The notes beneath the pieces were generated by a model, which saw only the letters and a list, made by a program, of their open reading frames with translations, was not told where the DNA came from and searched no databases. Made by a program: the position numbers and the translations under genes. DNA of 46,622 nt, taken from positions 1 through 46,622 of the IMG/VR virus record IMGVR_UViG_3300047462_000775; one strand, given 5' to 3'. Below are positions 18,960 to 44,729 of the stretch, one piece after another. How positions within the stretch are numbered: position 1 is the first letter of the stretch; the number at the start of each line of letters is the position of its first letter. The DNA comes from a virus.

Positions 18960-18976
18960 TCAGGAGATTCTAGACC

Positions 18977-19402: not shown

Positions 19403-19752
19403 TGGATACGCCCTCAGAAGCCATTATCAAGGCTGCGAACGCAACCGAGGATGTCAAGGACGCGTCGGGTCGCGTTCTCACGCTGAAAAAGCTCACAGCA
19501 CTGGATCGCATGCGGCTATTCGAGGTGGTTGGGGCCGAAAACGTCAAAAATGACTACTATCTCGGCTATGCCACGCTTGCCTTTCAGGTTGTAGCCATTG
19601 ACGGCGTGGACGTGGCTCGCCCGACCTCAAAGCTAGCGCTGGAAGGCCTCGTTCAGCGTCTCGGCGATGATGGGATCAACGCCATTGCAGCGAATGCACG
19701 GGCTGATACGGAAAATGACCACGACGCCAAGGAACTGGTAAAAAACGCGTAG
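19402..19752 (+). CDS. Tail assembly chaperone, short (unshifted) form
   Basis: A 116-residue product (MDTPSEAIIKAANATEDVKD...) located between tube and tape measure, the position of the gpG/gpE-type chaperone. It ends VKNA at the in-frame stop just after the slippery site A AAA AAC. Most ribosomes would make this form. It binds the tape measure during tail assembly and is absent from the final virion in known systems. Confidence 0.8.
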   Translation: MDTPSEAIIKAANATEDVKDASGRVLTLKKLTALDRMRLFEVVGAENVKNDYYLGYATLAFQVVAIDGVDVARPTSKLALEGLVQRLGDDGINAIAANARADTENDHDAKELVKNA

Positions 19753-19919
19753 AGCATCCCGAATTGGTCAAGAGCCTATGGCTCGTGAAGAACGGGGTGC
19801 CTTTCGACGTAGCTCTGTCGCTCGATGACATAGACCGGACGGCATACTGCATCATCTTCGGCGGTTTCGAAGGGCATAAATGGAACTGGTCGCGCATGGA
19901 GTGGGAAAAGCATGAATAG
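19402..19919 (+). CDS. Tail assembly chaperone, -1 frameshift fusion form
   Basis: After residue 115 (AAC codon ending at 19746), a -1 slip lets reading continue from 19746 to TAG 19917-19919, adding 57 residues that begin RVEHPELVKS and end WSRMEWEKHE, for about 172 in total. The extension includes YCIIFGGFEGHKWNW, which is typical of the second chaperone frame. It has no sensible start codon of its own. Fused forms of this type link the short chaperone to the tape-measure protein in many tailed phages. Confidence 0.8.
19740..19746 (+). other. Programmed -1 ribosomal frameshift heptamer A AAA AAC
   Basis: The heptamer A AAA AAC is exactly in the zero frame of the chaperone gene (codons GTA AAA AAC) and stands one codon before the stop TAG at 19750. 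This is one of the most efficient bacterial slippery sequences. A small hairpin GAGCC-TAT-GGCTC (19772-19784) lies downstream but further away than usual stimulators. Confidence 0.85.
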
Positions 19920-20370
19920 CTTCGCCTCATTCGCAGGGTTTGCCGCTCACCTGGCCGAAGTCATGGTGGAGACCGCGATCGTCGAGCGCGAAGCCCTCGA
20001 GAATGCCGCCGTTATCATCGAAAAGGCCGCGAAGGCAAAGATTGGCGAATATCAAGATCAGGCTGGTGAGTTCGCTGCCTGGGCCGATCTGGCAGAGAGC
20101 ACGAAACAGGATAGGGTCGCCAAGGGTTTCTCTGAAGACGATCCGGGCCTGCGCACAGGGCAGATGCGTGACAGCATCGAGCATCAAGTTCATGGCTCAG
20201 AGGCCGAGATTGGCTCGAATGATGATGACATGGTCTGGTTCGATCAAGGGACCGTCAAGCAACCGCCACGCAGTGTATTCGGTGGCACAGCTTTCGAGCA
20301 GGGTCCAGTCGTAGCGGCTGAAATTGGTGCTGAGATGTTCGCGGTGCTTTCCGGCACGCGTAAGAGGTAA
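19912..20370 (+). CDS. HK97 gp10-like / virion morphogenesis protein
   Basis: A 152-residue protein; helices AAVIIEKAAKAKIGEYQ and AAWADLAESTKQDRVAKGF followed by DDPGLRTGQMRDSIEHQV and IGSNDDDMVWFDQGT and a final PPRSVFGGTAFEQ. The L-x-TG-x-M-x-DSI followed by a beta segment and W-x-D-x-GT is the pattern of gp10/gpG-type tail-completion proteins. ATG overlaps the frameshifted chaperone stop by 8 bp. Placement before the tape measure is less usual for this family but seen in some contractile phages. Confidence 0.65.
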   Translation: MNSFASFAGFAAHLAEVMVETAIVEREALENAAVIIEKAAKAKIGEYQDQAGEFAAWADLAESTKQDRVAKGFSEDDPGLRTGQMRDSIEHQVHGSEAEIGSNDDDMVWFDQGTVKQPPRSVFGGTAFEQGPVVAAEIGAEMFAVLSGTRKR

Positions 20371-20373
20371 GTC

Positions 20374-21879
20374 ATGGAAGCCTACAAAATTGGCGTCACA
20401 ATCGCCCTGACGAACCTCGTCGGCACCGAGCTCACAAACCTCATCGGCCAGTTCGGCAGAGCCGACAAAGCGGCTCTCGGTCTAGCCGGTTCGATGAAGC
20501 TGCTCGGCGGTATCGTGGCTGTGGGTATCGTGTCAGCGTTCGCAGCCGGTGTTGAAGAAGCGAAGAAATTTCAGACTGAAGTCGCCAAGTTCCAGACACT
20601 CGGCTTTGGCGACAAGGTCAATGGCGACGCCCAGAGCTTTGCCGAGCATATGCGCACGGCAGGAACCAGCGCGCGGGAGAATATGGCGCTCGTAACCGAC
20701 GCCATGGCGGTGTTCAAGAATCTCGATCATGCCGAGATGGCCGCGCCAATCATGGCGCAGATGAAATTTGCGAACGCTGCGCTCTATGGCGATCAGGGCG
20801 GCGCGCGTGATCAGAAGTTCATGGACATGCTGAAGGTCATCGAGTTCCGCGGCGGACTGTCGAGTGACGCGGAGTTCCAGACCCAGGCCAATTTCGTACA
20901 GCAAGTCATCAACGGCAGTCGTAATCGCGTCGATGGGACCGCATTGCTTCAGGCCCTCAAGACCGGCGGCGTCGCCCTGTCGCGTCGCGAGAACAGCGCC
21001 TTCTATCTTGGTTCCGAACCGCTCATTCAGGAATTTGGCGGCCAACGCTATGGCACCGGCGCGATGAGCGCCTATCAGAACCTCGTGATGCTCCGGACAA
21101 CGCAGCGGGCTTTGACCGAAGACATGCGCCTCGGGCTGCTTGATCCCCATAAAATCGAGATGAATGGCTTCACCGGCAAGGTCAAAAGCGCACAGCCTGG
21201 TGCCATGAAGGGCGGAGATATCCTCGCGAAGGAAGGCGAACTGGCTTTCCTCGAAAAGGTCCTGCTACCAGCCTTCGCGGCAAAAGGCATCACATCCGAC
21301 GACGCTATCATCCAAGAACTCGGCACGATCCTGACCAATCGCACGGCCTCAGGCCTCTTCGCCCGCATTTACCAGCAACGCAATCAGCTGCACACGCAGA
21401 TCGACGCCAATCGTAATGCGCAGAATATCGCGCAGACCGTCAAAACGGCGGACCTGACGCAGGCGGGCCAGCTCATCGAGCTCGAGGCCCAATGGCACAC
21501 TCTTTTGAAGGAACTGGGCACGCTGATCCTTCCCACGGTGATCTCGGTCACCAAAGGCCTTGTCGCTGTCCTTCGGGAAGTAAACGGCTTCTCCAACTGG
21601 AAGTCCGACGCCGAGAAGTCGATAAAGGATCAAGGGCGTGACGGCCTATCGGGTTCACTTAACTGGTGGTCGACTCATCTTGGCGGCTCGTCGTCGGTTC
21701 CTCAGGCCAAGCAGTCCGCGATAACGATCAACACCACCACCGTCCTTGATGGGCAGGTCATCGCCAAATCGGTCACCAAACATCAGGACATCCAGATGCA
21801 GGGAGTCGCCTCGATGGGATCGACCGGCTCGACCGCCGATTATGGCCTCACGCAATACCGTCCGTCGTTCGGCTACTGA
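20374..21879 (+). CDS. Tail tape measure protein (short)
   Basis: A 501-residue, largely helical protein directly after the chaperone genes. Residues 38-62 are a hydrophobic segment (LAGSMKLLGGIVAVGIVSAFAAG region), and a second is near 385-400 (LGTLILPTVISVTKGLVAVL), as expected for tape measures that insert in membrane. At about 0.15 nm per residue it predicts a tail near 75 nm. The C-terminal 70 residues are low complexity. Its stop overlaps the next start (TGATG). Confidence 0.75.
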   Translation: MEAYKIGVTIALTNLVGTELTNLIGQFGRADKAALGLAGSMKLLGGIVAVGIVSAFAAGVEEAKKFQTEVAKFQTLGFGDKVNGDAQSFAEHMRTAGTSARENMALVTDAMAVFKNLDHAEMAAPIMAQMKFANAALYGDQGGARDQKFMDMLKVIEFRGGLSSDAEFQTQANFVQQVINGSRNRVDGTALLQALKTGGVALSRRENSAFYLGSEPLIQEFGGQRYGTGAMSAYQNLVMLRTTQRALTEDMRLGLLDPHKIEMNGFTGKVKSAQPGAMKGGDILAKEGELAFLEKVLLPAFAAKGITSDDAIIQELGTILTNRTASGLFARIYQQRNQLHTQIDANRNAQNIAQTVKTADLTQAGQLIELEAQWHTLLKELGTLILPTVISVTKGLVAVLREVNGFSNWKSDAEKSIKDQGRDGLSGSLNWWSTHLGGSSSVPQAKQSAITINTTTVLDGQVIAKSVTKHQDIQMQGVASMGSTGSTADYGLTQYRPSFGY

Positions 21880-22646
21880 TGACCGTCGCCCTCACCCTTG
21901 GCGGCGTCCTGTTCGCCGACTTCGAGGTCCCGGAAAAGATCAATTTCGGGGGCCAACAGGTCCTCGTTACCCACAAGCTCCCCGGCGGCCAGCGCATCAT
22001 CGACGCCATGGGGCGGGATGACATGCCCATTCGCTGGTCAGGCCGCTTCCGCGGTTCGTCAGCCGAGTTCCGCGCGCGGTCGCTCGACTTCCTCCGGGTT
22101 GGCGGGCAGGTCCAGCAGCTGGCCTTCTCGACCTTCCGCTACAGCGTCCTGGTCGATAGCTTCGAAGGCGATTTCCGCCAACCCTACGAGATCCCCTACT
22201 CAATCAGCTGCACGGTGGTCCAGGACCAGACCAGTCCGATCCTGACGGCCCTTATCGGCCTCGATCAGGCGGTCGGGGAAGACGTCAACAGCCTGGTCCA
22301 GATCGGCGCCAACCTCAATCTGCCGGGCGTCACCACCGCGATCGGCGGCGTCGTCACGGCGACCAGCACGATCCAGACCTTTCAGGGCGTGGCGTCCTCG
22401 GACGTATCGGCAGTCCAGACGGCCATATCTCTCGCACAAGGGGCCACCGGGACCGCCATAACCGCTGGAAACGGCACCGTGGCGGCGTCTGGCAGCGTCG
22501 CGGGCATGGTTGGGGGTCTTGACCCATCCGGCCTCGCCAGTGGGCTCGTATCACAGGCCACGGCCTTCGCGAACCTCGGGCAGCTCTATCAGCTCCAGTC
22601 GTCCCTCACCCGGATGGCGACTAACATCACCAATGGGGTCGGCTAA
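21879..22646 (+). CDS. Baseplate/hub-associated protein
   Basis: A 255-residue protein in the Mu gpN / DNA-circulation-like position between tape measure and hub. The N-terminal 120 residues hold INFGGQQVLVTHKLPGGQRIIDAMGR-type and IRWSGRFRG segments, and FRYSVLVDSFEGDFRQPYEIPYSISC, a beta domain that resembles baseplate wedge-hub adapters. Residues 130-255 are Ala/Gly/Thr-rich and helical. It overlaps both neighbours by one base. The function comes mainly from gene order. Confidence 0.55.
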   Translation: MTVALTLGGVLFADFEVPEKINFGGQQVLVTHKLPGGQRIIDAMGRDDMPIRWSGRFRGSSAEFRARSLDFLRVGGQVQQLAFSTFRYSVLVDSFEGDFRQPYEIPYSISCTVVQDQTSPILTALIGLDQAVGEDVNSLVQIGANLNLPGVTTAIGGVVTATSTIQTFQGVASSDVSAVQTAISLAQGATGTAITAGNGTVAASGSVAGMVGGLDPSGLASGLVSQATAFANLGQLYQLQSSLTRMATNITNGVG

Positions 22647-22831
22647 TGCGCACCATCGTTGTCTCCGGCGGGGACCTGTTTCACCTCGCCCTCAAATATC
22701 TGGGCGATGCGACGCAGTGGTCCCGTATTGCTCAGGCAAACGGCATCCTCGATCCTCAGATAGCCGGCGTGGTCACCCTCAAAATCCCGAAGGTCGATCT
22801 GAGCCAGACTGGAGGAGTGCTTGTCCTTTGA
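22646..22831 (+). CDS. Tail protein X-like LysM-type protein
   Basis: A 61-residue protein: an MRTIVVSGGDLFHLALKYLG start, a WSRIAQANGILDP middle and VVTLKIPKVD, which is the LysM-like layout of P2 gpX / T4 gp53-type small baseplate proteins (D-L-F-x-L-A, W-x-x-I-A-x-A-N-G, L-x-I-P). It lies between hub proteins and overlaps both neighbours. Confidence 0.75.
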   Translation: MRTIVVSGGDLFHLALKYLGDATQWSRIAQANGILDPQIAGVVTLKIPKVDLSQTGGVLVL

Positions 22832-23918
22832 TCTCGCCCAGCCCCAGGGCAGCGTCGCCCGCTACCCTGTCTGCAAAGCGACCCTGAACGGGAGCACGCT
22901 GCCGGGCGTCATCAGCGCCGAGGTCACCAATAATACCCATTTCACGGCGGACACCTATCACCTGACACTGGCGATGAGCGCCCTGCCTTCCGGCATGGAT
23001 GCGGCCTATTTCAGCTCCTCCGCCAACGACCAGGTTGCCATAACCGCGTCCTTCGCCGACGGCTACCAGCCCGATCAGCTGCTAATTATCGGACAGGTCG
23101 ATGATGTCGATGTGGACCTGGTCAAGCGCACCCTGACGCTCACCGGGCGCGATCTATCCGCGCAGATGATCGATACCAAGACCTCGGATCACTTTCAGCA
23201 AAACACGGCGAGCGAGATTGTGGCAATCATTGCCGGTCGGCATGGTTTGCAGACCAACATCGCCGCCACGACGACCAAGGCCGGAACCTACTACGAGCTG
23301 TATCACTCGCGGCTGACGGTATCACAGACCGAATGGGACCTGCTGATCTTCCTCGCCGAACAAGAAGACTTCGATCTCTGGGTCAGCGGCAACACGCTCA
23401 ATTTTCAGCCCTCGGTCGCTGAAACCGATCCACCATACGTGCTGCTCTGGTCCGATCTGGGCCCCGGCAACAAGTCGAGCAACTGCTCAGACCTTCAGCT
23501 GAAACGGTCGCAAACGCTGGCAAAAGATATCATCGTCAAGGTCCGCAGCTGGAACCAGGCTCAGGGTGTCGCCTTCACTGTCGAGAGCAAGCGCAATCAG
23601 GCGGCAAAGTCTCAGCGCTCTGGCGGACAGGCACAAACCTACTTTTTCCGCCTAGCCAATGCCACACAGGCGCAGGCCCAGCAATTCGCGAACAATATGC
23701 AGGAGAAGATCAGCCGACATGAGCGCGTCGTCACCGCAGCAATGCCCGGCGATAACCTGCTGACGATCAGAAAGCCTGTGAAGCTGGTCGGCACCAATAC
23801 CGACTGGGACCAGGTTTACTACGTCGACTCGATCCATCGGCATATCTCGATGCAAGGCGGCTATCGCATGGAAGTGCGAGCCAAGAACCACAGCACGGCG
23901 AGCATGGTGACCGAATGA
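22821..23918 (+). CDS. Baseplate hub protein (P2 gpD-like)
   Basis: A 365-residue late-control/hub protein. The start is TTG 22821 behind a strong GGAGGAG, inside the end of the preceding gene. Features are the LTGRDLSAQMIDTK segment (about 110-123), WDLLIFLAEQEDFDLWVSGNTLNFQP (residues about 173-198), which is typical of gpD/gp27-fold proteins, and VYYVDSIHRHISMQGGYRMEV near the C terminus. It forms the trimeric ring that joins tube to spike. Confidence 0.8.
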   Translation: MSFDLAQPQGSVARYPVCKATLNGSTLPGVISAEVTNNTHFTADTYHLTLAMSALPSGMDAAYFSSSANDQVAITASFADGYQPDQLLIIGQVDDVDVDLVKRTLTLTGRDLSAQMIDTKTSDHFQQNTASEIVAIIAGRHGLQTNIAATTTKAGTYYELYHSRLTVSQTEWDLLIFLAEQEDFDLWVSGNTLNFQPSVAETDPPYVLLWSDLGPGNKSSNCSDLQLKRSQTLAKDIIVKVRSWNQAQGVAFTVESKRNQAAKSQRSGGQAQTYFFRLANATQAQAQQFANNMQEKISRHERVVTAAMPGDNLLTIRKPVKLVGTNTDWDQVYYVDSIHRHISMQGGYRMEVRAKNHSTASMVTE

Positions 23919-24502
23919 GCGACGTTCTGCGCAACCATATTCGCATAGAGATTGCCAAGGCGTTGGCGAACCTCGGAACCACGCTGCACGGCACGGTCCA
24001 GAGCTATGATCCGGCGCACTACAGCGTTCGGGTTGCCATTCAGCCCGATGGCGTCCTGACAGGCTGGATACCGCTCAAAGCAGAGGCGGTCGGCAATGGC
24101 TTTGGCGTCGTCTATGGGCCGAATATCGGCGACGCCGTCGAGCTGACCTTTCAGGAGGGCTCGCTGCAGGCCGGTGTGTGCGGTGGCCGGTTTTTCAACG
24201 CGCAGAACCAACCACCTCCGGTTCCATCAGGTGAGTTCTGGATTGTCCACAAGAGCGACAGTATCGCCAAATTCCATAATGACGGGTCAGTGGAATTAAC
24301 TGCCAACACGAATATGACTCTAACGGCAGGCGGTACGCTTCGCCTTACCGCTCCAACCATTCAGCTCCACGCGACCACAGAATACCGCTGGGACGTCAAC
24401 GGTCATGGCCAGGCATGGCTCGGAACCAAGATCGATACCTATCAAATCGGCGAAACTGCCGGTTCGGCCCACGCAATCAGCCCACCAGAGATCGGCGACT
24501 AA
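23915..24502 (+). CDS. Baseplate spike protein (gpV-like)
   Basis: A 195-residue protein. The N-terminal OB-like domain has LHGTVQSYDPAHYSVRVAIQPDG and TGWIPL, then VVYGPNIGDAVELTFQEGS; a C-terminal beta-helical spike follows (DGSVELTANTNMTLTAGGTLRL). This is the P2 gpV / Mu gp45 arrangement, the membrane-piercing tip. It overlaps the hub stop by 4 bp (ATGA). Confidence 0.85.
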   Translation: MSDVLRNHIRIEIAKALANLGTTLHGTVQSYDPAHYSVRVAIQPDGVLTGWIPLKAEAVGNGFGVVYGPNIGDAVELTFQEGSLQAGVCGGRFFNAQNQPPPVPSGEFWIVHKSDSIAKFHNDGSVELTANTNMTLTAGGTLRLTAPTIQLHATTEYRWDVNGHGQAWLGTKIDTYQIGETAGSAHAISPPEIGD

Positions 24503-24505
24503 CCT

Positions 24506-24880
24506 ATGGCCGACCTTGATCACACTTACTCGGGCGATTTATCCGTTTCGGCCAATGGCGACCTTTTGACCGCAGACAGCCTCGAACTTAGTAAACAGCT
24601 GGTCTTACGACGACTGCTGACCAACCCGTGGGCTTATATCTGGCATCCAGAATATGGCGCAGGGCTGCCAGCGATGATCGGTCAGCCCATTGATGCTCCG
24701 ACTGTCAGCGGCATCATCACGGCACAAATGTTCCTTGAGGCATCGGTTGTCCAAGACCCGCCACCCACGATCACCGTGACGCCGATCGCCAACGGCATGT
24801 TCGTCGAAATCGCCTATTTCGAGACCGATTCTGGCGAGCAAGTCACGCTCGCATTCAATCCAGCCGACTTAAACCAGTAG
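24506..24880 (+). CDS. Baseplate wedge protein (gp25/gpW-like)
   Basis: A 124-residue protein with DLSVSANGDLLTADSLELSKQLVLRRLLTNPWAYIWHPEYGAGLP, which carries the gp25 family layout (Q-x-x-x-R-R-L-x-T-x-P and Y-G-x-G-L). It nucleates the baseplate wedge and sheath. It sits in the expected V-W-J order. Confidence 0.85.
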   Translation: MADLDHTYSGDLSVSANGDLLTADSLELSKQLVLRRLLTNPWAYIWHPEYGAGLPAMIGQPIDAPTVSGIITAQMFLEASVVQDPPPTITVTPIANGMFVEIAYFETDSGEQVTLAFNPADLNQ

Positions 24881-24886
24881 ACTTTC

Positions 24887-26011
24887 ATGGCTTCATTGCA
24901 AACTGCCGATTTTACAACCCTAGTGCGATCGATGGTAGCTGCTGTCCAAGCTGGCACGGCAACACTCATCAACCTGAACGTCGGCAGCGTCTATCTGGCG
25001 ATGATGGAAACAGTGGCCGCGCAGCTGCTATGGCTGCAAGGCCTCGTCGTCTACGTCCTGACGCTCACGCGGGCGGCGACCAGCTCGGGGAAGGACCTCG
25101 ACAGCTTCGTCGCCGATTTCGGCCTGACCCGCCTTGCCGCCAACTATGCAACCGGGGTGGCTACCTTCGCGCGGTTCACCACGACCACACAGGCCGTCGT
25201 CCCATTCAACACGCCGATCCAGACCGCTGACGGCACCCAGAATTTCCTCGTCGAAGCCGATCCGACCAATGCCGCCTATAACGCTGGTCTTGGTGGCTAC
25301 GTCCTGTCGATTGGCACCTCGAGCGTCTCGGTCCCCGTCATCGCCATCACCGCTGGATCTGCGGGCAACGTGCTCGCCGGCACCGTCACCTCGATCAATC
25401 AGGCCGTACCTGGCATCGATACCGTCACTAACGCATCCGGGTTTATCAACGGCCTCGATGCCGAGACCGATCAGGCCCTACGCATTCGCTTCGTCGCCTA
25501 CTTCGCCTCGCTGTCGAAGGCCACTGCGGCCGCCATCGGCTCAGCCATCGAAAATGTGCAACAAGGTCTCCAATTCACCCTGAGCCCAAACGTCAACTAC
25601 TCCGGTGCAACTCAGGTCGGCTATTTCGTGGTTGTCATCGATGACGGGTCCGGCGCTCCCTCATCATCGCTGCTGACCGCTGTTGCGCTCGCGATTAACG
25701 CTGTCGTGGCGCTCACGGTCACCTTCGGCGTATTCGCCCCCGTGGTCATCACAGCGACGCCTTCGATGACGCTGACTACGGCCTCCGGCTATGTCCATGC
25801 CACAGTCGTGGCTCAGGTCGTCACGGCGCTTCAGAACGCGATCAATGGCCTGGGCCTCGGCAATAGCCTGCCTTATACGCGATTGGCCGCAATTGCTTAC
25901 AGCGTCCCGGGCGTCACCAACGTCTCCTCCGTGCTGCTGAACGGCGGCACTGCCGATCTGACCGCTGACGCGCTGCATACTGTAAAGTGCGGAACTGTGA
26001 CCGTCGGGTGA
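24887..26011 (+). CDS. Baseplate J-like wedge protein
   Basis: A 374-residue protein. N-terminal helices with a GSVYLAMMETVAAQLLWLQ segment, then the J-type core: GVATFARFTTTT, ITAGSAGNVLAGTVTSI (residues about 155-171) and GLDAETDQALRIRFVAYFAS (about 188-207), the E-T-D-x-A-L-R-x-R signature of baseplate J. Follows gp25/W by 6 bp and precedes the I-like gene with a GTGA overlap. Confidence 0.88.
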   Translation: MASLQTADFTTLVRSMVAAVQAGTATLINLNVGSVYLAMMETVAAQLLWLQGLVVYVLTLTRAATSSGKDLDSFVADFGLTRLAANYATGVATFARFTTTTQAVVPFNTPIQTADGTQNFLVEADPTNAAYNAGLGGYVLSIGTSSVSVPVIAITAGSAGNVLAGTVTSINQAVPGIDTVTNASGFINGLDAETDQALRIRFVAYFASLSKATAAAIGSAIENVQQGLQFTLSPNVNYSGATQVGYFVVVIDDGSGAPSSSLLTAVALAINAVVALTVTFGVFAPVVITATPSMTLTTASGYVHATVVAQVVTALQNAINGLGLGNSLPYTRLAAIAYSVPGVTNVSSVLLNGGTADLTADALHTVKCGTVTVG

Positions 26012-26670
26012 GCGGCGATCAGACCGATATCCTCGGCAGGCTGAAAGCGGGCCTGCCGACTGGCTGGTTTCAGGCACCGACACCAATTCTCGATTCGGTG
26101 CTGTCCGGTTTCGCCGCAGTGCTGGCACAGGCCTATTCGCTGATCCAGTTCGCCAAACTCCAGACCCGCATAGCAACGGCCACAGACGGCTTCCTTGATC
26201 TGATCTCACGGGACTATCTTGGGACGACTCTGCCACGTAACAGCGGCGAGATGGACGGTACCTTCCGGTCCCGCATCCAGGCAGCCATCCTCCGCCAAAA
26301 GGCAACGCGCGCGGGCATGATCGCAACGCTGGTGGCGCTCACAGGTCGAGTTCCAGTGATCGTCGTGCCATCGACCCCGAATGATGTCGGCGCCTACGGT
26401 GTCAGCACTTCGGGCTACAGGGTCGCCGGCTATTACGGTTCGCTGCTGCTGCCATACCAGTGCTTCATCACCGCCTATCGCGCGCTGGGATCGGGCATTC
26501 CGAATGTCGCAGGTTACGGCATCTCGACGGCTGGATACGGCGTCGCCAGTCAAAATTGCTACTGCGATTTGAGCCAAGTCACCGGCAGCGTTCCTGACTC
26601 GGCAATTTACGCGGCGATTGCCGCGACGGAAGCTGAAGGAACGATCTGCTGGACTGAAATATTATCATAA
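26008..26670 (+). CDS. Tail protein I-like
   Basis: GTG 26008 overlaps the J stop (GTGA) and gives 220 residues. It contains TPILDSVLSGFAAVLAQAYSLI, RIATATDGFLDLISRDYLG and RSRIQAAILRQKATRAGMI (adapters of the P2 gpI / T4 gp6-C type) and ends with two Tyr/Gly-rich copies: GAYGVSTSGYRVAGYYGS and GYGISTAGYGVASQ. Such proteins join fibres to the baseplate. The second fibre gene follows. Confidence 0.65.
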   Translation: MSGDQTDILGRLKAGLPTGWFQAPTPILDSVLSGFAAVLAQAYSLIQFAKLQTRIATATDGFLDLISRDYLGTTLPRNSGEMDGTFRSRIQAAILRQKATRAGMIATLVALTGRVPVIVVPSTPNDVGAYGVSTSGYRVAGYYGSLLLPYQCFITAYRALGSGIPNVAGYGISTAGYGVASQNCYCDLSQVTGSVPDSAIYAAIAATEAEGTICWTEILS

Positions 26671-26683
26671 CCAAGGAGACTGA

Positions 26684-28114
26684 ATGGATAGAGTCATCAA
26701 CTGGGCTGGGGCAATTCCACTCGAAACCGACCTTCTTAATACAAACAAGAACACGATGGAAGCTCTTGGGTATCTGGCCCAAGCGATACTTGGGTCTTCG
26801 AAGATATTCGATGGACTGGCCTGCACGCCGACATCACCCGCATCGCTTCAGGTCAATATCGGGGTCGGTTCCTGCTACGCCCTCGCTGCTGCTGATGCCT
26901 CGGCCTATAGCAGTCTTGCCGCTGACACCACACAGATCCTGAAACAGGGCATTCTCGGATCTTCGATCCTTCTGACGTGCGCTGCTCCATCAACGACCGG
27001 ATACTCGATCAACTATCTCATTCAGGCCGAATATGCCGATAGCGATAGCGGATCGACGGTCCTCCCATACTACAATTCCAGCAATCCCTCAGTGGCTTAC
27101 AGCGGTCCAGGCAACAGCGGCGCAGCCAATTATACGGTCCGTAAAGGCACAATCTCGATCAACGCCAAGGCTGGCGCAGCTGCGACCACTGGAACACAGA
27201 CCACGCCATCCCCAGACCCTGGATACACCGGGCTCTATGTCGTCACGGTCGCCAACGGCGCGACGACGATCGGCAGCGGAAATATCAGCTTTGCTCTGAA
27301 TGCGCCGTTTATCGGGGTGAAGCTACCGCTCATTCCGACCCTCATACGCACGCGCTTAACGGCCAACACGTCATATTATGTCTCGACCAGCGGCAGCGAC
27401 TCGACCGGCAACGGAAGCTCAGGACTTCCTTGGGCGACCATTCAGAATGCCGTCAATTACGTGCAAGACAATATCGACCTGAATGGCTTCACCGCGACGA
27501 TCAATGTGGCTGATGGTACTTATAGCCCCTTCTCGGTATCCGAGCCGCTTGTCGGGCCCGGGCTGCTACAGGTTACTGGTGACATCGCTAATCCAGATAA
27601 TTGTATTATCTCGGCTTCGGGAGCTGCTGACTGTATAGTGGCCGTTTACGGAGCTACAGTTTCCGTATCAGGCTTCAAACTGATTGGGTCATCTGGTAAC
27701 GGCCTGCACGCATCCTACGGTGGCACCATCATGGTGAGTGGCAGTATGGACTTCGGCGCAATCGGAAATGCGCAAATCGATTCCGATGGCATAGGATCAT
27801 CGATCATCATCACCAGTCCCTACAAAATAAGTGGCAGCGCCAGCTATCATCTAGCCACATTCTATGGTGGACATATTGTAGTTGGGGCTGTGGCACTGAC
27901 GCTGACTGGAACGCCCGCATATTCGGTCGGGTTTGCGGCGACAGTGGGCGGCGGCGGTCTGATCCAATGTAGCGCCGTGTCTTTCTCCGGATCAGCTACA
28001 GGACCGAAATATAACTCCTCGTTGAATGGTGTGATAAACACTAATGGCCAAGGGACAAGTTATTTCCCTGGTAGTACAGCTGGAAGCACCCCGACTGGCG
28101 GACAGTACGCATAA
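26684..28114 (+). CDS. Tail fibre with right-handed beta-helix
   Basis: A 476-residue protein without signal peptide. Residues 1-40 (DRVINWAGAIPLETDLLN, then EALGYLAQAILG) are a baseplate-attaching fibre head. Residues about 225-420 form a parallel beta-helix beginning YYVSTSGSDSTGNG and PWATIQNAVNYV, a classic start of phage and polysaccharide-degrading helices. It could bind or cleave a surface glycan; no catalytic pair is evident. AAGGAG lies 7 bp before ATG. Confidence 0.8.
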   Translation: MDRVINWAGAIPLETDLLNTNKNTMEALGYLAQAILGSSKIFDGLACTPTSPASLQVNIGVGSCYALAAADASAYSSLAADTTQILKQGILGSSILLTCAAPSTTGYSINYLIQAEYADSDSGSTVLPYYNSSNPSVAYSGPGNSGAANYTVRKGTISINAKAGAAATTGTQTTPSPDPGYTGLYVVTVANGATTIGSGNISFALNAPFIGVKLPLIPTLIRTRLTANTSYYVSTSGSDSTGNGSSGLPWATIQNAVNYVQDNIDLNGFTATINVADGTYSPFSVSEPLVGPGLLQVTGDIANPDNCIISASGAADCIVAVYGATVSVSGFKLIGSSGNGLHASYGGTIMVSGSMDFGAIGNAQIDSDGIGSSIIITSPYKISGSASYHLATFYGGHIVVGAVALTLTGTPAYSVGFAATVGGGGLIQCSAVSFSGSATGPKYNSSLNGVINTNGQGTSYFPGSTAGSTPTGGQYA

Positions 28115-32336: not shown

Positions 32337-32364
32337 TTGGCGCATAACAAACATTATGCAAAAA
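32337..32364 (+). other. XerC/XerD dif-like recombination site
   Basis: The 28 bp have the Xer layout: left arm TTGGCGCATAA (32337-32347), central CAAACA (32348-32353), right arm TTATGCAAAAA (32354-32364). Compared with E. coli dif, the left arm matches 8 of 11 (including the whole GCGCATAA) and the right arm 8 of 11 (including TTATG). GCATAA and TTATGC are exact inverted repeats. It lies between the cargo and transfer modules. Likely use: dimer resolution or host-Xer recombination. Confidence 0.6.
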
Positions 32365-32471: not shown

Positions 32472-33356
32472 ATGAACGACGTTCTGGGATGGCTACCCTT
32501 TATTGACCTGGCGCTCGCCTTGGCATCGTTCGCCATCGGGTTCGGCTACACGCAGTATGAAATATGGTCGCGGCGCACGAAGGGCGAGACCTTCAACGTC
32601 GGTTCCAAGGGCTTTGACACGCGCTATCAGCAAGTGCGCGCGGATGTGTTCGATGGCCTCAGGATCAGCATCCCACTCGTTTACAGCAGCATTGTGCTCA
32701 ACATAGCAGCTAGTGCCATTGCATTTTACCAATCGTACGATCTCGCAATCGTCTATGAGCCTCTTAAGCTTGTAGGTTTCATATTTCTGATCCGCCCAAT
32801 GTTTTGGCTCGGTAAGCTTATAGCTGATACCATTTGCTGGCTCAGGTTGGAGCATTATGGTCCGTCTCTTTATCCAGGCAGCAATCAGGGAATCCGTATC
32901 GCCTATATCAATCTAAAGGACGGAGCGGTTGAGCCTGATACCCTGACGCGTGAAGCGCGACTTAAGCAACACACGCTTTGGAAGGAAACACGTCATGACA
33001 CGATAGCTGAATATCGGCCAGAACTCTATTTCTGGTCCGGGCTGGCGATTGCCGGAGCCGTGGCAGTTTATGTCCTGACAAGCATCCTGCCGTCGGACAG
33101 ATCGACGCGTGAACTGGCTGCGAATGTACTGCTCCTCCATCCCTACCTGCTTGTGACTGGCCTGTTTATCACCGCCGGAAAGGACACGTTCGCAGCACGC
33201 ATCACACTATTCCTCGACCTTTTCGCTTATTGGCTTGGCGCCCAGTTCATTGGCCATGCGCAAGTCAAAGATCCTCCAACCACAAGGACACCGGGCGGCA
33301 ATGTTTCAGATGACGACGACCTTGGCGGCGGCGGAATCAACGACCCCACCGCCTGA
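32472..33356 (+). CDS. Polytopic membrane protein upstream of the coupling protein
   Basis: ATG 32472 gives 294 residues (the frame opens at 32415). Hydrophobic spans lie at about residues 8-28, 65-85, 95-115, 190-210, 225-243 and 250-270, so some six segments. The C-terminal 35 residues are hydrophilic (Asp-rich then Gly-rich). No family recognised. Its end overlaps the VirD4-like gene by 56 bp in another frame. It could provide the membrane anchor missing from that protein, or be one half of a protein split by a frameshift. Confidence 0.55.
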   Translation: MNDVLGWLPFIDLALALASFAIGFGYTQYEIWSRRTKGETFNVGSKGFDTRYQQVRADVFDGLRISIPLVYSSIVLNIAASAIAFYQSYDLAIVYEPLKLVGFIFLIRPMFWLGKLIADTICWLRLEHYGPSLYPGSNQGIRIAYINLKDGAVEPDTLTREARLKQHTLWKETRHDTIAEYRPELYFWSGLAIAGAVAVYVLTSILPSDRSTRELAANVLLLHPYLLVTGLFITAGKDTFAARITLFLDLFAYWLGAQFIGHAQVKDPPTTRTPGGNVSDDDDLGGGGINDPTA

Positions 33357-34821
33357 CATATGGTCACAAAAATCCGGTATCTATCTCGGCTTCAAGATGA
33401 GAGTGGGAGATAAAGAGCCGATCACAATCCATCAAAACTTCATCTACAAGGGCGCCCGCCATATCCTGACGTTTGGCCCTAACTCGTCAGGCAAGACGCG
33501 GCGGCTTCTCGTGCCAAACCTCTGCGGCAATCTTCTCGACTGGTCGGTTGTCGTCGTCGATCCAAAGGGCGAACTATGCAAAATGAGCCGCGAGTATCGG
33601 CTCAATCGCGATGATGACGGTAATCCGCGAAATAAAGTCATCGTCCTCAACCCCTACAAACTCTTCGGCATACCGTCGGACGGTTTCAACCCAATCATGA
33701 GTCTTGACCCCAAGGCAGATGACTTCCCCGATGATGCGTTAAATCTTGCCGATGCCGTCATTAAAGTATCCGGCAGCGAGCGCGATCCTCACTGGACCAA
33801 TTCCGCGCAAGACCTCATCACAACACTTATCATGTTCGCTCGGATAACGGCGAACATCGTTTATAGCCGCACGGGGGAGATAGCTGACTTTCGCGGTCAT
33901 TTTGGCTATGTGCGTGAATGTCTCGGCTATGATGCTGATCACTTCAAAGAGCTTATCAAAGAGATCGTTGATACTGCAGAGTCTGAAGAGTATTATTGCC
34001 CCGAGTTAGCCACAAAGGCGAATCGCTGGAAGTCAATTGGGAACGACAATAAAGAACTGAATAGTATCATATCGACCGCCTTAACCCAGACCCGTTGGCT
34101 CGACAGCAGACCCATCAAACGCGATTTGCTCCGCGGCACTCACGATCTATCGAAATTAAAGGAGCAACCGACAACGTTATACCTGATCCTTCCCGCTAAT
34201 CGTCTTGCGACACAATCATCTTGGCTCAGGCTGATTATCGTGAGTATCGTTCAGAGCCTGATGAAGGATGCCACTAAACCGAAGACCCCTACCCTTCTGA
34301 TGCTCGAAGAAATGGCGCAGCTAGGCAATCTTGCGGTACTCGAAAACAATATCGCTTTGATGAGAGGGTACGGAATCAAGCTATGGGGCATCTACCAGGA
34401 TATGGCCCAAATCCAGGATATTTATAGCAAGCGTTGGGAAAGCTTTGTTGGTAATTCGGGCGTAGTCAATGCGTTCGCGCCGCAGGACGTCGTCACTGCA
34501 GAATATCTATCCAAAAGAAGTGGCGTTAAGACTATCTCGCTCAAAAATTCGTCCACAACCACAACTGTGCATGGCCTGGAACCCACGAAGGCTGGCATCT
34601 CGTTGAACCAAACACAGCGGCCAGTCCTCTACCCACAAGATATACGGGGAATGGACGATGGCGTTATGGTAACATTTACGCATGCAATAAAGCAGGAGGA
34701 TAAAAATAAGACCGAAAGAGGTCTATCCATCAAGGCCGAAAATTCCAACTTTATGTATGCCCCCTTCTATACCAATCTTGATGGTTTCACGGATATCGCC
34801 AAGCTCGATCCGTCGCTTTAG
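33301..34821 (+). CDS. VirD4/TraG-like type IV coupling protein
   Basis: ATG 33301 (or 33310) gives about 506 residues. ATPase features: Walker A GPNSSGKT (59-66), VVVVDPKGELCKM (Walker B-prime like; about 77-89), PTLLMLEEMAQLG (about 330-342, Walker B) and a C-terminal RPVLYPQDIRGMDDG-type segment. It would dock the relaxase-DNA complex on a mating channel. Unusually, the protein begins straight in the soluble part with no transmembrane segment. No VirB genes are present in the window, so a host or co-resident system would be needed. Confidence 0.85.
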   Translation: MFQMTTTLAAAESTTPPPDIWSQKSGIYLGFKMRVGDKEPITIHQNFIYKGARHILTFGPNSSGKTRRLLVPNLCGNLLDWSVVVVDPKGELCKMSREYRLNRDDDGNPRNKVIVLNPYKLFGIPSDGFNPIMSLDPKADDFPDDALNLADAVIKVSGSERDPHWTNSAQDLITTLIMFARITANIVYSRTGEIADFRGHFGYVRECLGYDADHFKELIKEIVDTAESEEYYCPELATKANRWKSIGNDNKELNSIISTALTQTRWLDSRPIKRDLLRGTHDLSKLKEQPTTLYLILPANRLATQSSWLRLIIVSIVQSLMKDATKPKTPTLLMLEEMAQLGNLAVLENNIALMRGYGIKLWGIYQDMAQIQDIYSKRWESFVGNSGVVNAFAPQDVVTAEYLSKRSGVKTISLKNSSTTTTVHGLEPTKAGISLNQTQRPVLYPQDIRGMDDGVMVTFTHAIKQEDKNKTERGLSIKAENSNFMYAPFYTNLDGFTDIAKLDPSL

Positions 34822-35402
34822 TGGTTATTAAATTTGTTGGCCTGGAGGAAACTTTCAATGGTGCCATTTTCCAGGTGCCATTGATACTTCTCGCCAAAGC
34901 TCATGTCGTCATAGCCCACTGACTTTAAGCGGCTATCTGCTTTCCGACCTTCGATGAGCTGGTGACGCCGGTCATGCCGCAATTCCATCTTGCTCTTGCT
35001 ACGCGGCTTGACGGCGACCTTGAGTGACTTACCACGGGCCTTGTGCCTGATAGTTGCTTGCTCTCTAAACTCATCAACCTTAAGTTGCCGCTCCGCTATA
35101 GCTTGTTCGTGTTTGACCATAGCGAGGCCGGGTAGGTAGGTCTTGAAGCGCGTCCGGTAGGTATATGGCTTAAATGTCGGTAGCCGCTGTGGTAGTGCTT
35201 CCTTTAGCTTCCTGGTAGCAATAAGCGTAAACTGATAGACGAATACCTGTTTGTGGTGATCATACCATAGCTGCTGCTTGAAGCTGCGTCGCGGCTTTCT
35301 GATCGTAAGTCCCGCCGTGCGCCTGAATGCCCGGCTCTGCCTGGTCTTTCGTTTTCTTCGTTTGCCTGAGCGTGACCGGGAGCCCGGTCTAGTCTCGCCC
35401 CC
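34818..35402 (-). other. Open frame: out-of-frame C-terminal extension of the relaxase or separate small gene
   Basis: On the minus strand a frame is open for 194 codons from the TAG at 35403-35405 to the stop at 34818-34820. It encodes very basic, protein-like sequence (KRRKRKTRQSRAFRR near the start; YDHHKQVFVYQFTLIATRKL; YTYRTRFKTYLPGL) but has no ATG until MVKHEQ at 35120, from which 100 residues follow. It begins exactly in the run of six Cs (35398-35403) at the end of the relaxase gene. Removing one base there would extend the relaxase to about 930 residues. Overlaps the coupling-protein stop by 4 bp tail to tail. Confidence 0.5.
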
Positions 35403-37593
35403 CTAGCCCTCCTTGGAGCGGCCTCCCACTTTCGGCCAATGCGCCTTCCGGCGTCGTGATCGCGCTGTCGTTCTCTTTGGCTGGTTGGGCCTGCGCACTC
35501 TCGCCGGCGCTATTGCCCGTAGCCGTATTCGTGTGCTGCGGCCGCGTTGGCTGCTCGGGCTGGTGTCCCTCGGCTTGCTGCCTCTGATCCTTGGCCTGCT
35601 GCTCACGCTGAGCGACCTGCTCAAGCAGTGCCGCCCGCTCGGCGCGAGCCTGATCACCGATCTCCTGCCACTCCTGGGCGCGACTGCGGTCGATGTCTCC
35701 AGCCTCTGACTTAGTGCCGCCATATCGATAGTCGGCATGTCCGCCGCAGCGGTTGTTCGTGATGGTCTGATAGCCAGCACCTAAAACTGTGCTTTGAAGC
35801 TCGATGATGCGTCTCTTCTCAGGGTCTTGCTCCAGTGCCGCCGCGACAGCGAGTTCCTGAATCTCCTTGGCGAAGATCTGGTATTCCTTCATGGCGGCCT
35901 GGATGCCCGTGCTTATCCAGTCACTGCCCTCCGTTTCACCCAGAGCCTCGGCATATCTCGCTCCGGGACTGCGAATGCCATCAGGCTCGGAGCGCGCTCG
36001 CTTCAAACGTTCCTGTTCGGCTGACTCCCGGCAGGACTCCGCGTGGTGCCTAGATTTCCACGCGAACTCAGTGCGGAAATCGTCTTCCGGGGTTGGTTGA
36101 TCGGTCCGGTCCCGAAGGGTCTCCCAACTATGGATGACCTTGTCGCGCTGCTTCTCATGCTCGGACAGATCGGGCTGGATGTCCTCGATGCGCTGTGCGC
36201 TCGTGGATTTCTGGTCTTGCTGGTCGGCTTGCGGCTTGCCCTCCTCGCCTGGAGGCGCCGGCTGCCCTGGACGGCCCGGTCGCGTGGGCTGTTCAGTATA
36301 ACCGTCTGAGCCAACGATGAAGTCGGCTTCTGACGTTACGCCCGAATAGTCGGGTGCCTTGGGCTTGGCGCCTGGCCGGGTCGCACTCTGGGCGTTTGCT
36401 CCAAAGGTCGCGTTTAGATGGCTTTTGCGCAGTTCGTCGAAGTCTTCCTTCGTCGTTTCGTGGCGCACTTCCAGGGCTTCCTTGTCCGCATCAGTTGAGG
36501 TTTCAGCGGTTGCAGGCGCAGGGATAGTCGGATCTGTGTCTAGGTCGGGATGCCGCGGGTACGGGTTCGTCGTGTGCCAGCTCTCCTCGGCAGCCTGGAC
36601 CCTGGCATCGCGGTCATGGGGCAGCTCGCCATCGCGTATTTCAGAAATCTTGGCATGGACCTCGTTCCACCGTTTCCCGTAGTCCTCGACCTCCCGTTCC
36701 CAGATTTCCAAGGCTGCTATGCTGGTTTCAGGTGCGGGTGACATTCTTACATCCGCAAGGTCTATGACGTTGGGTGCGGCTCCGGCTGTCTCGGCACGTA
36801 AGGCGGTCAGTTCGGCGTTGCGCTGGCGATTATCATTCTCGGCACGGACGGCGCGCCAGTCATTTCCGGCGTGGCTCTCGCGGCCCTCGCGCTCCATGGC
36901 GGTAGCCTGCGGACCGAGTTTGGGTTCGGGGATCAGGCCGGTGCCGCGCGCGGCGTGGCTCTCCATGCTGATACGGGCATCGTAGCCCCACTCAGCCATG
37001 CGGCCATTGACGTGGTATTCCCACGACTGACGCAGTTCGATCAGCGACTCTCTATTGTATCCAGGCTCATACGCCTTGGACTGACTGAACCCGATCCCGT
37101 CGCGATCTGACAAATCGACCGCTCGAGTGCTGACAAGGATGTGGGAATGCCAGTTCCGCGCATCGACGCCCGGCTTGTCCTCTGGCTCATGGATACCGAA
37201 CTCAGCGACCAGGCCGCGCGACAAAGCCATCTTCTCGATGAACCCGCGGGTGCCTTCGATTTTCTGGTCGAGGGTCCATTCATGCGGCAGCGAGACGAGC
37301 CATTCCCGCGCCACCATCGCGGATGAGGCTTTCCGATTATACGCGTCTTCTGCGCACTCGGCGGCATACCAAAGTCGCGTCCTGTCCATCATCCAGGAAG
37401 GTGCGCCCTCTGGGAGCATCACCTCGGCATGGACAACGCGCTGCTCACGGTTTTTGTCACCGCGTTCAAGCTTGCCGCGATACTCGTCGTAGACCTCGGT
37501 GCTGGATAGGTAAGCGGATGCTGCCGCAGCAGTCCTGCCTGCGGCACTAACCCCCCTGCCCCGCACCTTGGTTTCGAGACGCGCGATTGCCAT
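35389..37593 (-). CDS. mobA: MobA/MobL-type relaxase (MOBQ)
   Basis: A 734-residue conjugative relaxase. The N-terminal 200 residues carry the fold: AAAASAYLSS with Tyr28 (candidate nucleophile, or Tyr35/38), HEW near 104-106, GIHEP with His135 and NWHSH (147-151), the metal-binding His pair. It nicks oriT and leads the strand into the recipient. Residues 240-734 are charged, Gln/Glu/Pro-rich and largely disordered or coiled, without helicase or primase motifs. It is the third gene of a coupled minus-strand set. Confidence 0.85.
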   Translation of the reverse strand: MAIARLETKVRGRGVSAAGRTAAAASAYLSSTEVYDEYRGKLERGDKNREQRVVHAEVMLPEGAPSWMMDRTRLWYAAECAEDAYNRKASSAMVAREWLVSLPHEWTLDQKIEGTRGFIEKMALSRGLVAEFGIHEPEDKPGVDARNWHSHILVSTRAVDLSDRDGIGFSQSKAYEPGYNRESLIELRQSWEYHVNGRMAEWGYDARISMESHAARGTGLIPEPKLGPQATAMEREGRESHAGNDWRAVRAENDNRQRNAELTALRAETAGAAPNVIDLADVRMSPAPETSIAALEIWEREVEDYGKRWNEVHAKISEIRDGELPHDRDARVQAAEESWHTTNPYPRHPDLDTDPTIPAPATAETSTDADKEALEVRHETTKEDFDELRKSHLNATFGANAQSATRPGAKPKAPDYSGVTSEADFIVGSDGYTEQPTRPGRPGQPAPPGEEGKPQADQQDQKSTSAQRIEDIQPDLSEHEKQRDKVIHSWETLRDRTDQPTPEDDFRTEFAWKSRHHAESCRESAEQERLKRARSEPDGIRSPGARYAEALGETEGSDWISTGIQAAMKEYQIFAKEIQELAVAAALEQDPEKRRIIELQSTVLGAGYQTITNNRCGGHADYRYGGTKSEAGDIDRSRAQEWQEIGDQARAERAALLEQVAQREQQAKDQRQQAEGHQPEQPTRPQHTNTATGNSAGESAQAQPAKENDSAITTPEGALAESGRPLQGGLGGRD

Positions 37594-37775
37594 CAGCCGT
37601 CACACGGCAGATCGGGGTCATAGCCCCCCTGCCCGCTTGCACCGCAGATCGCACAGACGATCACGCCGTTCTGCTCAACCCACTTGTGCTCTGGCTTGGC
37701 TGATACCTGGCGCACAGGCGTGACCGGCTTCCAAGCTGCCGCCGACCTTCTGTTCCATGTGCGCCGAAGCCTCAC
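37593..37775 (-). CDS. Small CxxC protein of the mobilization operon
   Basis: A 60-residue protein with GTG start overlapping the upstream stop (GTGA) and its own stop overlapping the relaxase ATG (TGATG). The N terminus is Arg-rich; the C terminus reads NGVIVCAICGASGQGGYDPDLPC, a likely single metal site or knuckle. Unknown role; coupling suggests it serves the relaxase. Confidence 0.6.
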   Translation of the reverse strand: MRLRRTWNRRSAAAWKPVTPVRQVSAKPEHKWVEQNGVIVCAICGASGQGGYDPDLPCDG

Positions 37776-39147: not shown

Positions 39148-39149
39148 GC

Positions 39150-40758: not shown

Positions 40759-41687
40759 GACGGCCTCGCCTCGTCCGGTGCTGCGCCCTGCCCTACTTCC
40801 GGTGCTACCGGGCGGCTTGGCTGTGGTTCGATCTCCGGCTTGGGTTCCGGGTAGATAAAGTCGGCGGCTTTCTGGGATTGGGCAAAGGCGTGGAAGATGG
40901 CGCGTTTGTCGGACTTCAGGACGCGGACCCAGCTGTTGAGATAGGTCGCGTGGTCCTTGCGCGGCTGTGCGCTGACGCCGGTGGTCGCGCATAGCAACGC
41001 CGCCGAGCACTCGGCTATGAGCTCCTCCGCCGCGTAGCTCTCGTCGCCGAAACGGCCCTTGAGGCTGCGGTTCAGGCGCGTCTCGTGGCCGGTCCAATGG
41101 GCGGCCTCATGCCACATAACGCTCCAGTAGGCCTCGGAGCTTGCGAACTGCTCCGGCTTCGGCATCTGGATCATGTCGCGTGACGGGCTGTAGTAGGCAC
41201 GATCACCGCGATAGCTGACCCGCGCGCCGGTCATTGCCAGAATGTCCTCGCACAGGGCGTTGCGCTCGATGGGCGTCAACGGGATGACGGACAGCGGCGG
41301 CGCGTTGTCCACCTGGTCGGCATTGAAGACGGTGAAGGTTTTGAGGACCGGGATCATCTTGTCCTCGCCCGTGTCCTTGTCGGTAACGGCATGAGGTTTA
41401 TAGAAGATGATCTGCGTGCCCTTCTCGCCTTTGCGAACCTGCGCATCGAGGTGCTGCCATTGCTGGTATGTGGCGAAGAATGGCGATGAGAACCCAGCAA
41501 ACCCAAGCAACGGCACATTCATGCCGCGATAGGCTCGTTTAGTCATGGCGTTCCGATAAGGGCCTGCACCCGTCCATTGCTGCGTCCACGACATGCCCGC
41601 AGTTTCCATGCGGCGGACGACTTCATCGGTGACAGCTTGATAAAGGTCGGTGCGAGTAACTTCAGATGAGGAACGCTTAAAAGACAT
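40755..41687 (-). CDS. ardC: ArdC-like antirestriction protein (ssDNA-binding plus zincin)
   Basis: A 310-residue protein. Residues 1-125 are the ArdC N-terminal ssDNA-binding domain (DLYQAVTDEVVRRMETAG, YRGMNVPLL, GEKGTQIIFYKP). Residues 140-285 are a zinc metallopeptidase with HEAAH at 193-197 and the third ligand in the AAEELIAE segment (219-226). ArdC proteins protect entering plasmid strands. The gene is preceded by AGGAGA and by a small CCTGC/GCAGG hairpin that partly includes the ribosome site. Confidence 0.88.
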   Translation of the reverse strand: MSFKRSSSEVTRTDLYQAVTDEVVRRMETAGMSWTQQWTGAGPYRNAMTKRAYRGMNVPLLGFAGFSSPFFATYQQWQHLDAQVRKGEKGTQIIFYKPHAVTDKDTGEDKMIPVLKTFTVFNADQVDNAPPLSVIPLTPIERNALCEDILAMTGARVSYRGDRAYYSPSRDMIQMPKPEQFASSEAYWSVMWHEAAHWTGHETRLNRSLKGRFGDESYAAEELIAECSAALLCATTGVSAQPRKDHATYLNSWVRVLKSDKRAIFHAFAQSQKAADFIYPEPKPEIEPQPSRPVAPEVGQGAAPDEARPS

Positions 41688-43286: not shown

Positions 43287-44729
43287 TCAGCCGTAGCAGT
43301 GATGGTTACCTTTATGTTTAATCTCAAGAATTACTGTGTTGCAGTTAGTGCCGACTGATGAAAATGAACGCTGCGGCAGATCATAAAAACGACCATTCTT
43401 GCCGCTAACCACTTCCCGGAAGGCTATAGACTTTTTGGTCTCCCGAAACTCCGTCCCTGCTGACATGATAGCCAGCAGCGTCCCCTTGGCTTTGAGGAAC
43501 TTCATCGCGTGCATGACGTGGTCTATGTCTCGCTCTCGATCAAAAGGCGGATTCATGACGACACAGTCATAAAGATCGGACGGTTGAACCGATAAAAAGT
43601 CGCATTGCATAACGCGGCGATAGCGGCCCGACTGCCGTAGCTGGTGCGCCCGTTCGCCGTGGATCTCGATGCAATCAACGATCGCGCCCTTGGCGGCGCA
43701 GCGTTGGGCCAGGTTGCCGGTTCCGGCACTCGGCTCAAGCACGGTTATCCGCGGGTCGCCTTCACGATGATAAAGCGGCGCAAGATCGATGACCCGGTCG
43801 GCGGCGGCGTCCGGCGTTGGGTAGAATCCGAAGTTTTTTGCAAGCTCGGTCTTCGGATTGTTGAGTCCGGTATCTGCATCCGGCGCGCGCTCCTCCGGTA
43901 GCGGATTCCCGTAGTAGTCGCCCAGTAGCTTGTTGATTTTTTCGAGCAGGTCGTCCCGCTTGAACCAGATATGAGCGTTCCCGTTCTTGAAAATGCGAAT
44001 CAGGAAATACTCCGTCTCAGCCTCGGTCTGCCGGGCGCCGAAGCCCCTCCCCCGCGCTGTCTCGATGGCCGCGCCTATGGCGCCTCCGTAGTTGGTCGGT
44101 TGTTTGGCTCCGTCCATCACGCAAAAGGTGCGCTCGATATCGACCATCGTATCCCGGTGGTTCCGGTGAAAACTCCAAGAGCCAAATCCATCGAACGCAT
44201 GATCGAGTATGACACGGCTGCCGATCTTCCAGCCGTCATGACTGCGGAAACGCCGATCTAGGTTGGAAAAGCATTCAGCAATCCCGCGCTTGAAGATAGT
44301 TCCAGCGTCCGCGGCGAACTGCTCAAGCGTGGCAAAGATATTATCAATCGTCGCTTCGGGCGGCTCGGTCATCAGCTGCTGCTGAAACTCGTCCTTCGCC
44401 TTCTTGTCCATCAGTCGCTCAAGATCGGTGATCTCGATGATGTGCGCCCATGCGTCAGTGTCGGTCAGTCGCCGCGCCGTCGTCATGAAGCTCTCGCGGG
44501 TCGGCAGGTCAATTCTGCCGATAAAGTCCTCTCGTTCCCGCTTCGAACTGTAATTGTAGCGATTGACGCCGTGGGTCGATTGAGAAGCCGTCTCCCGCGC
44601 TGCCTTGAGGGCTGACTCTGCTTGGTTCAGCGTCTCGAAGGCTGCACTATAAAGTTCGATAGCGCGATTGCGGCGGTGGACGATCTCTTCGACCGTGGCG
44701 CGTGGCATAAGTGATGTGGTTTCCGTCAT
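43287..44729 (-). CDS. DUF4942-type adenine DNA methyltransferase
   Basis: A 480-residue protein. Residues 1-300 correspond to a DUF4942-like region (WKIGSRVILDHAFDGFGSW around 165-185; DYYGNPLPEE near 270). The C-terminal Rossmann domain has FYPTPDAAADRVIDLA, motif I VLEPSAGTGNLA (329-340), an acidic strand-2 end (DCIEIHGER) and motif IV VVMNPPF (390-396). It should methylate adenine in plasmid DNA. GAGGAG precedes the ATG. No cognate endonuclease is visible. Confidence 0.82.
   Translation of the reverse strand: MTETTSLMPRATVEEIVHRRNRAIELYSAAFETLNQAESALKAARETASQSTHGVNRYNYSSKREREDFIGRIDLPTRESFMTTARRLTDTDAWAHIIEITDLERLMDKKAKDEFQQQLMTEPPEATIDNIFATLEQFAADAGTIFKRGIAECFSNLDRRFRSHDGWKIGSRVILDHAFDGFGSWSFHRNHRDTMVDIERTFCVMDGAKQPTNYGGAIGAAIETARGRGFGARQTEAETEYFLIRIFKNGNAHIWFKRDDLLEKINKLLGDYYGNPLPEERAPDADTGLNNPKTELAKNFGFYPTPDAAADRVIDLAPLYHREGDPRITVLEPSAGTGNLAQRCAAKGAIVDCIEIHGERAHQLRQSGRYRRVMQCDFLSVQPSDLYDCVVMNPPFDRERDIDHVMHAMKFLKAKGTLLAIMSAGTEFRETKKSIAFREVVSGKNGRFYDLPQRSFSSVGTNCNTVILEIKHKGNHHCYG

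Follow-up and report, generated by a model that had tools for sequence, protein, structure and literature searches.

A putative chromosome-style dimer-resolution site with converging KOPS in a phage record that carries mobilization genes

Replicon size is thought to set the mode of dimer resolution, with own resolvases on mid-size plasmids and FtsK-coupled XerCD/dif on chromosomes and megaplasmids. FtsK finds dif via GGGNAGGG motifs (KOPS), which point to dif (PMC13342612). In Enterobacteriaceae, FtsK-controlled XerCD sites (xrs) become standard only on replicons larger than 250 kb; those of 30-100 kb mostly lack xrs (PMC11724359). An FtsK-controlled site on a small phage or plasmid replicon would thus be unusual. 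The xrs of megaplasmids and secondary chromosomes (R27 and others, PMC11724359; large replicons, PMC13342612) are single 28-bp sites with an 11-6-11 layout. Their arms are of the chromosomal type, their centre is different, and KOPS converge on them. In bacteria with several chromosomes or replicons, the dif arms are alike and the centres vary between replicons (PMC2731167). XerCD sites with different centres do not recombine in Acinetobacter (PMC11705084). A dimer-resolution site where KOPS converge is also described for the phage-plasmid P1 (cited in PMC11724359); it belongs to the Cre/loxP system, for which P1 encodes its own recombinase. Phage-plasmids with a relaxase or an oriT are rare, the reported cases being two P1-like ones (PMC10879196).

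The window, i.e. the whole stretch of DNA that was analysed, is an IMG/VR virus record of 46,622 nt. At 32337-32364, it contains the 28-bp sequence TTGGCGCATAA-CAAACA-TTATGCAAAAA (Table 1). The preliminary description had taken this for a dif-like XerC/XerD site, and both the 11-6-11 layout and the CGCATAA / TTATG cores were confirmed. The features by which membership in the dif family was judged, the ATAA-N6-TTATG cores and an A at position 25, are present. We consider it probable that this is a chromosome-style XerCD/FtsK dimer-resolution site (xrs) of an alphaproteobacterial replicon with phage and mobilization genes. All of the xrs properties listed above for large replicons recur in the window. 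The difference from the Enterobacteriaceae megaplasmids (>250 kb) is in the carrier, which here is a phage/plasmid hybrid (46.6 kb seen) and, for a related site described below, a 73.5-kb circular repABC plasmid. Plasmid sites of the cer/psi type are accompanied by accessory sequences, and the cer core has an 8-bp centre; the centre in the window has 6 bp.

The site is intergenic and occurs once; a search through the window for a second copy returned none. It lies in a non-coding stretch (32311-32471), 27 nt past the end of a frame-broken gene (32310) and 107 nt before an ATG (32472), in a window with a coding share of 89%. No terminator or promoter was found at the site, and no tRNA or Rfam features were detected. 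The exact 28-mer is found in no other IMG/VR record. A pdif module, as had been proposed, requires at least two sites, and the trimmed record has one (the next PWM match, see below, reaches 8.4 bits). The Acinetobacter pdif / xrs cassettes (PMC11705084) are likewise 28-bp XerCD sites on a plasmid-like element, but they come as two flanking sites. The gene immediately to the left (31740-32310) has two apparent frameshifts, and its stop at 32310 is in another frame. It appears to be broken, being either a pseudogene or affected by a sequencing error.

Table 1. Features of the window that are discussed in the text.
Feature	Position	Strand	Remark
Putative XerC-binding arm TTGGCGCATAA	32337..32347	+	fits the dif PWM; 9/11 identical to the candidate dif of G402
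Central hexamer CAAACA	32348..32353	+	absent from the ~90 chromosomal dif-type sites surveyed
Putative XerD-binding arm TTATGCAAAAA	32354..32364	+	10/11 identical to the candidate dif of G402; A25 as in the published consensus
KOPS GGGCAGGG	2425..2432	+	points right, at the site
KOPS GGGCAGGG	7383..7390	+	points at the site
KOPS GGGGAGGG	8813..8820	+	points at the site
KOPS GGGCAGGG	16116..16123	+	points at the site
KOPS GGGTAGGG	34287..34294	-	points left, at the site; inside a + strand gene
KOPS GGGCAGGG	37554..37561	-	points at the site
KOPS GGGCAGGG	37627..37634	-	points at the site
KOPS GGGCAGGG	40786..40793	-	points at the site
KOPS GGGGAGGG	44045..44052	-	points at the site
KOPS GGGCAGGG	45448..45455	-	points at the site
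KOPS GGGCAGGG	46252..46259	-	points at the site
Phage morphogenesis module	4475..28114	+	left of the site; terminase, DUF4055 portal, P22-like coat, tail sheath, baseplate J, tail protein
T4SS coupling protein (T4CP; VirD4/TraG type)	33235..34821	+	right of the site; PF02534, E=1.9e-55; 51% aa identity to G011:C4
MobA/MobL (MOBQ-type) relaxase	35389..37593	-	PF03389, E=8e-41
ParB-like protein	44772..46622	-	PF02195; phrog_7783, E=8e-77

The resemblance to dif was quantified with a position weight matrix (PWM) built from 48 proteobacterial dif sequences (Carnoy & Roten 2009, Table 1; PMC2731167). The arms of the site score 24.9 bits, which is within the leave-one-out range of the 48 true dif sequences (27% of them score lower); the second-best independent position in the window reaches 8.4 bits. 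Only one other site as high as 24.9 bits was encountered in a background of related DNA from phages and plasmids (2.10 Mb, excluding two loci fetched as dif hits), which corresponds to ~0.02 expected per window. The pattern CGCATAA-N6-TTATGNAA occurs in 69 of 81 genomes from one order of Alphaproteobacteria, almost all having TTATGGAA, and the reversed control gave 0; in these 69 genomes, it clearly marks dif. It also occurs in 22 of 80 genomes from the order of a Sphingomonas MAG (reversed control: 3 hits). Control hits amount to ~2e-4 per window-length, but this pattern was picked with the site already known, so that 0.02 per window is the safer chance figure. As far as the sequence can tell, the dif-like site of the XerCD type at 32337-32364 is confirmed.

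A chance resemblance, or a regulator operator in which the palindrome GCATAA-N6-TTATGC would bind a transcription factor ahead of the transfer operon, was weighed as an alternative. Palindromes of 6 bp with a 6-nt gap are common, and degenerate copies are neither enriched nor depleted in the window (15 found, 14.0 expected). Unrelated phages, too, have chance patterns of this sort in their coding DNA (L153-L162). The part that is specific to dif (CGCATAA, TTATG and A25) is, however, far from random, a second operator copy is lacking in the window and KOPS converge on the region. We regard this alternative as quite unlikely.

Relatives of the phage module are found in many Pseudomonadota, and the longest shared gene runs include two Sphingomonadales MAGs (L031/L113; L080/L114-L115). 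The host is likely alphaproteobacterial. A Sphingomonadales genome (G402) has a candidate dif, AGGGCGCATAATTTATATTATGCAAAAT, the arms of which are identical to those of the site at 19 of 22 positions, the centre at 2 of 6. Its assignment as dif is supported by a flip of KOPS orientation (11+/0- in the 20 kb to the left, 0+/7- in the 20 kb to the right) and by a sign change of GC skew along the contig. This is the best arm match. A refuting condition named in the preliminary description, a host dif that differs in both arm cores, is not borne out for the host class, whose dif arms are similar. A point against our preferred reading is that the XerD arm TTATGCAA is rare; dif of Hyphomicrobiales is almost always TTATGGAA. 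The exact arm pair of the site was found in 2 of 339 Pseudomonadota genomes. Six alphaproteobacterial genomes (G001, G474, G501, G515, G520 and G544) have two CGCATAA-N6-TTATGNAA sites each, with different centres. These pairs probably reflect the dif of secondary replicons.

KOPS (GGGNAGGG) provide a second line of evidence, independent of the first. They occur 11 times in the window, and all 11 point at the site, with 4+/0- on its left and 0+/7- on its right. Among 56 permuted motifs, KOPS rank first in polarity, and none of 1000 synonymous-codon shuffles matched the net KOPS polarity. Among 2117 gapped heptamers that occur 11 times or more, only 3 are fully polarised toward the site, one of them being KOPS. 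The polarity is confounded in part, since gene strand flips near 35 kb and control motifs are "correct" in 71% of cases (120/170); against this rate, 11 of 11 corresponds to p=0.02. Gene strand alone does not explain the polarity, as the minus-strand KOPS at 34287 is inside a plus-strand gene, an orientation predicted by the position of the site. Further points against the preferred reading are the width of the interval in which the polarity switches (16.1-34.3 kb) and a GC skew that shows no sign change at the site. If the replicon is circular, the KOPS divergence (the origin side) would fall into the missing part between the record ends, and this would fit the absence of a rep gene from the record.

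Convergence of KOPS on a dif site is also what a much larger replicon would show. The site might thus be the dif of a chromosome, chromid or megaplasmid, with the window being mobile DNA piled up at the terminus and the KOPS polarity being that of the host. All large replicons have a dif and polarised KOPS, and dif is known to attract insertions (PMC2731167). The record begins and ends with inward-pointing gene starts (ATG at base 1, CAT at the last base, 46622), and a record that ends exactly on gene starts resembles a provirus trimmed in silico from a longer contig. Yet, all recognisable genes on both sides belong to mobile elements, and no chromosomal gene was seen in the window. The lack of a GC-skew switch also argues against this possibility, as does the occurrence of a related transfer module on a 73.5-kb circular plasmid with a site of its own. 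On balance, we consider the larger replicon unlikely.

This plasmid, G011:C4, encodes the closest T4CP (51% identity). It is a 73.5-kb contig with overlapping ends, which indicates that it is circular, and is a repABC plasmid (RepB, RepC and a ParA-type protein; L149-L152). The gene order is that of the window, with the T4CP gene in forward orientation followed by a convergent relaxase gene. In G011:C4, 25 of 27 KOPS agree with a split into two arms, and none of 300 label shuffles was as good. The KOPS switch within 17778-21780, and the best dif-like site of the contig, GTGCACCATAAAGGACGTTATGTTACAC at 18047, is inside this interval. It scores 15.4-16.6 bits, and the next best in the contig 8.0. 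Unlike in the window, there is no dif-like site upstream of the T4CP gene in G011:C4, which counts against the preferred reading. Conservation in related elements, which had been named as a check, thus holds for the kind of site and fails for its position. Between these two elements, the arrangement of dif and KOPS is conserved and the placement at a module boundary is not. The idea that phage and transfer modules had been joined by Xer recombination is not supported: a second site is lacking in the window, and G011:C4 has the same T4CP/relaxase layout with its site elsewhere. The dif-like site is not a general feature of such plasmids, since in five other mobilizable plasmids from Alphaproteobacteria or Xanthomonas that encode related T4CPs, no candidate for such a site exceeds 7.8 bits. 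Several of these five have annotated recombinases instead.

Alternatively, the site could serve as attP for an IMEX of the VGJ or island type, with double-stranded phage DNA integrating at the host dif via XerC/XerD. The ORFs scanned in the window yielded no integrase gene and none for a tyrosine or serine recombinase. The arm pair is indeed used by real Xer elements. A scan of IMG/VR with CGCATAA-N6-TTATGCAAA yielded 50 contigs, 8 of which are filamentous phages, recognised by families of Zot and replication proteins, that have the motif outside coding sequence; the reversed-pattern control (29 contigs) contained 0 filamentous phages. This finding concerns the arm pair and is not evidence that the window integrates. 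The filamentous sites are of the CTX type. They share with the window the CGCATAA / TTATGCAAA arms, the 6-nt centre and the non-coding location (inoviruses L167, L168, L176, L181, L185 and L189). In CTX-type attP, the single-stranded DNA folds into a duplex that resembles dif, by means of a hairpin and a second, inverted arm. Both are present in the filamentous sites, the second arm with a duplex z of -2.2 to -6.7 and the hairpin, a strong one, with z of -2.5 to -6.9, whereas the window site has no second arm (duplex z -0.9) and only a weak hairpin. A CTX-type folded attP was therefore rejected for the window site, and with it the earlier suggestion of a dif-integrating phage of this type. In addition, integration requires homology of the centre beside one arm or both, and none of the ~90 host-class dif-type centres surveyed matches CAAACA, which disfavours integration at the host dif. 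The site also has a central rather than a terminal location in the element. The attP alternative is thus considered very unlikely. Contigs with CTX-type folded attP, for which z is mostly below -4, are L167, L168, L169, L176, L179, L181, L185 and L189, and possibly L194 and L196. A stricter arm pattern gave 10 IMG/VR matches, which were rejected as Xer sites because they represent one lineage of coding sequence. The contigs L172, L175, L178, L184, L186, L187 and L199 have in common the dif-like motif AAGTCGCATAATACGACTTATGCAAATT, which in this case is part of coding DNA, namely of a conserved ORF of 288 bp.

Dimer resolution, the other function proposed in the preliminary description, is supported by the host-class arms and the converging KOPS, and we predict the following course. 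Two circular copies of the replicon would fuse by homologous recombination, giving a dimer in which the site is present twice, as a direct repeat. Host FtsK would load on the GGGNAGGG motifs during septation and follow their common direction to the site. FtsK would then activate host XerD, followed by XerC, and strand exchange across CAAACA would separate the monomers. The private centre would permit exchange between sister copies, not with chromosomal dif. We infer binding and recombination by XerCD, the requirement for FtsK and the extrachromosomal phage-plasmid nature of the replicon from this arrangement. In contrast to P1, the recombinase would not be the element's own, the site being of the host Xer type.

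It may be speculated, with less confidence than for the site itself, that a tailed phage-plasmid well below 250 kb and a plasmid family sharing its transfer genes both resolve dimers in the chromosomal manner, using a host-type dif with its own centre, converging KOPS and the host FtsK-XerCD, and no resolvase of their own. If true, the size rule from Enterobacteriaceae would not hold in Alphaproteobacteria, and coupling to host cell division could arise long before megaplasmid size is reached. A virus could then hand the upkeep of its prophage to the division apparatus of the host. In the open-access literature, no description of a tailed phage-plasmid with such a dif/KOPS arrangement was found, which is weak evidence of absence. 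The dif PWM combined with KOPS convergence provides a simple computational screen for such elements.

A phage-plasmid would unite phage structural genes with plasmid replication and partition genes on one extrachromosomal replicon. The element, a possible phage-plasmid, has phage, T4CP, relaxase and ParB-like genes; a replication (rep) gene was not found in the trimmed 46,622-nt record. The phage module on the left is of the contractile-tail type and also includes baseplate V and a cell-wall hydrolase. To the right of the site, there are additional genes for an ArdC-type antirestriction protein, a methylase, Nmad5-type proteins and DUF4942. The ParB-like protein is common in Alphaproteobacteria (39 of 385 genomes of the class). 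In IMG/VR, no close relative was found for either the T4CP or the flanking 313-aa protein, and GTDB yielded none for the T4CP; an alignment search of IMG/VR gave T4CP relatives of only 27-30%.

With a VirD4-type coupling protein and a MobA/MobL relaxase (33235-46622) in a tailed-phage record, the element is apparently mobilizable by conjugation as well as packaged, as judged from its gene content. A role of the dif-like site as oriT was considered and rejected, because the MOBQ nic-like sequence TAAGTGCGCCCT adjoins the relaxase gene in related plasmids and is not at the site. Weak MOBQ nic-like matches in the window are oriT candidates: AAGGTGCGCCCT in the relaxase gene and CATGTGCGCCGAAG upstream of it (37398-37411 and 37756-37769).
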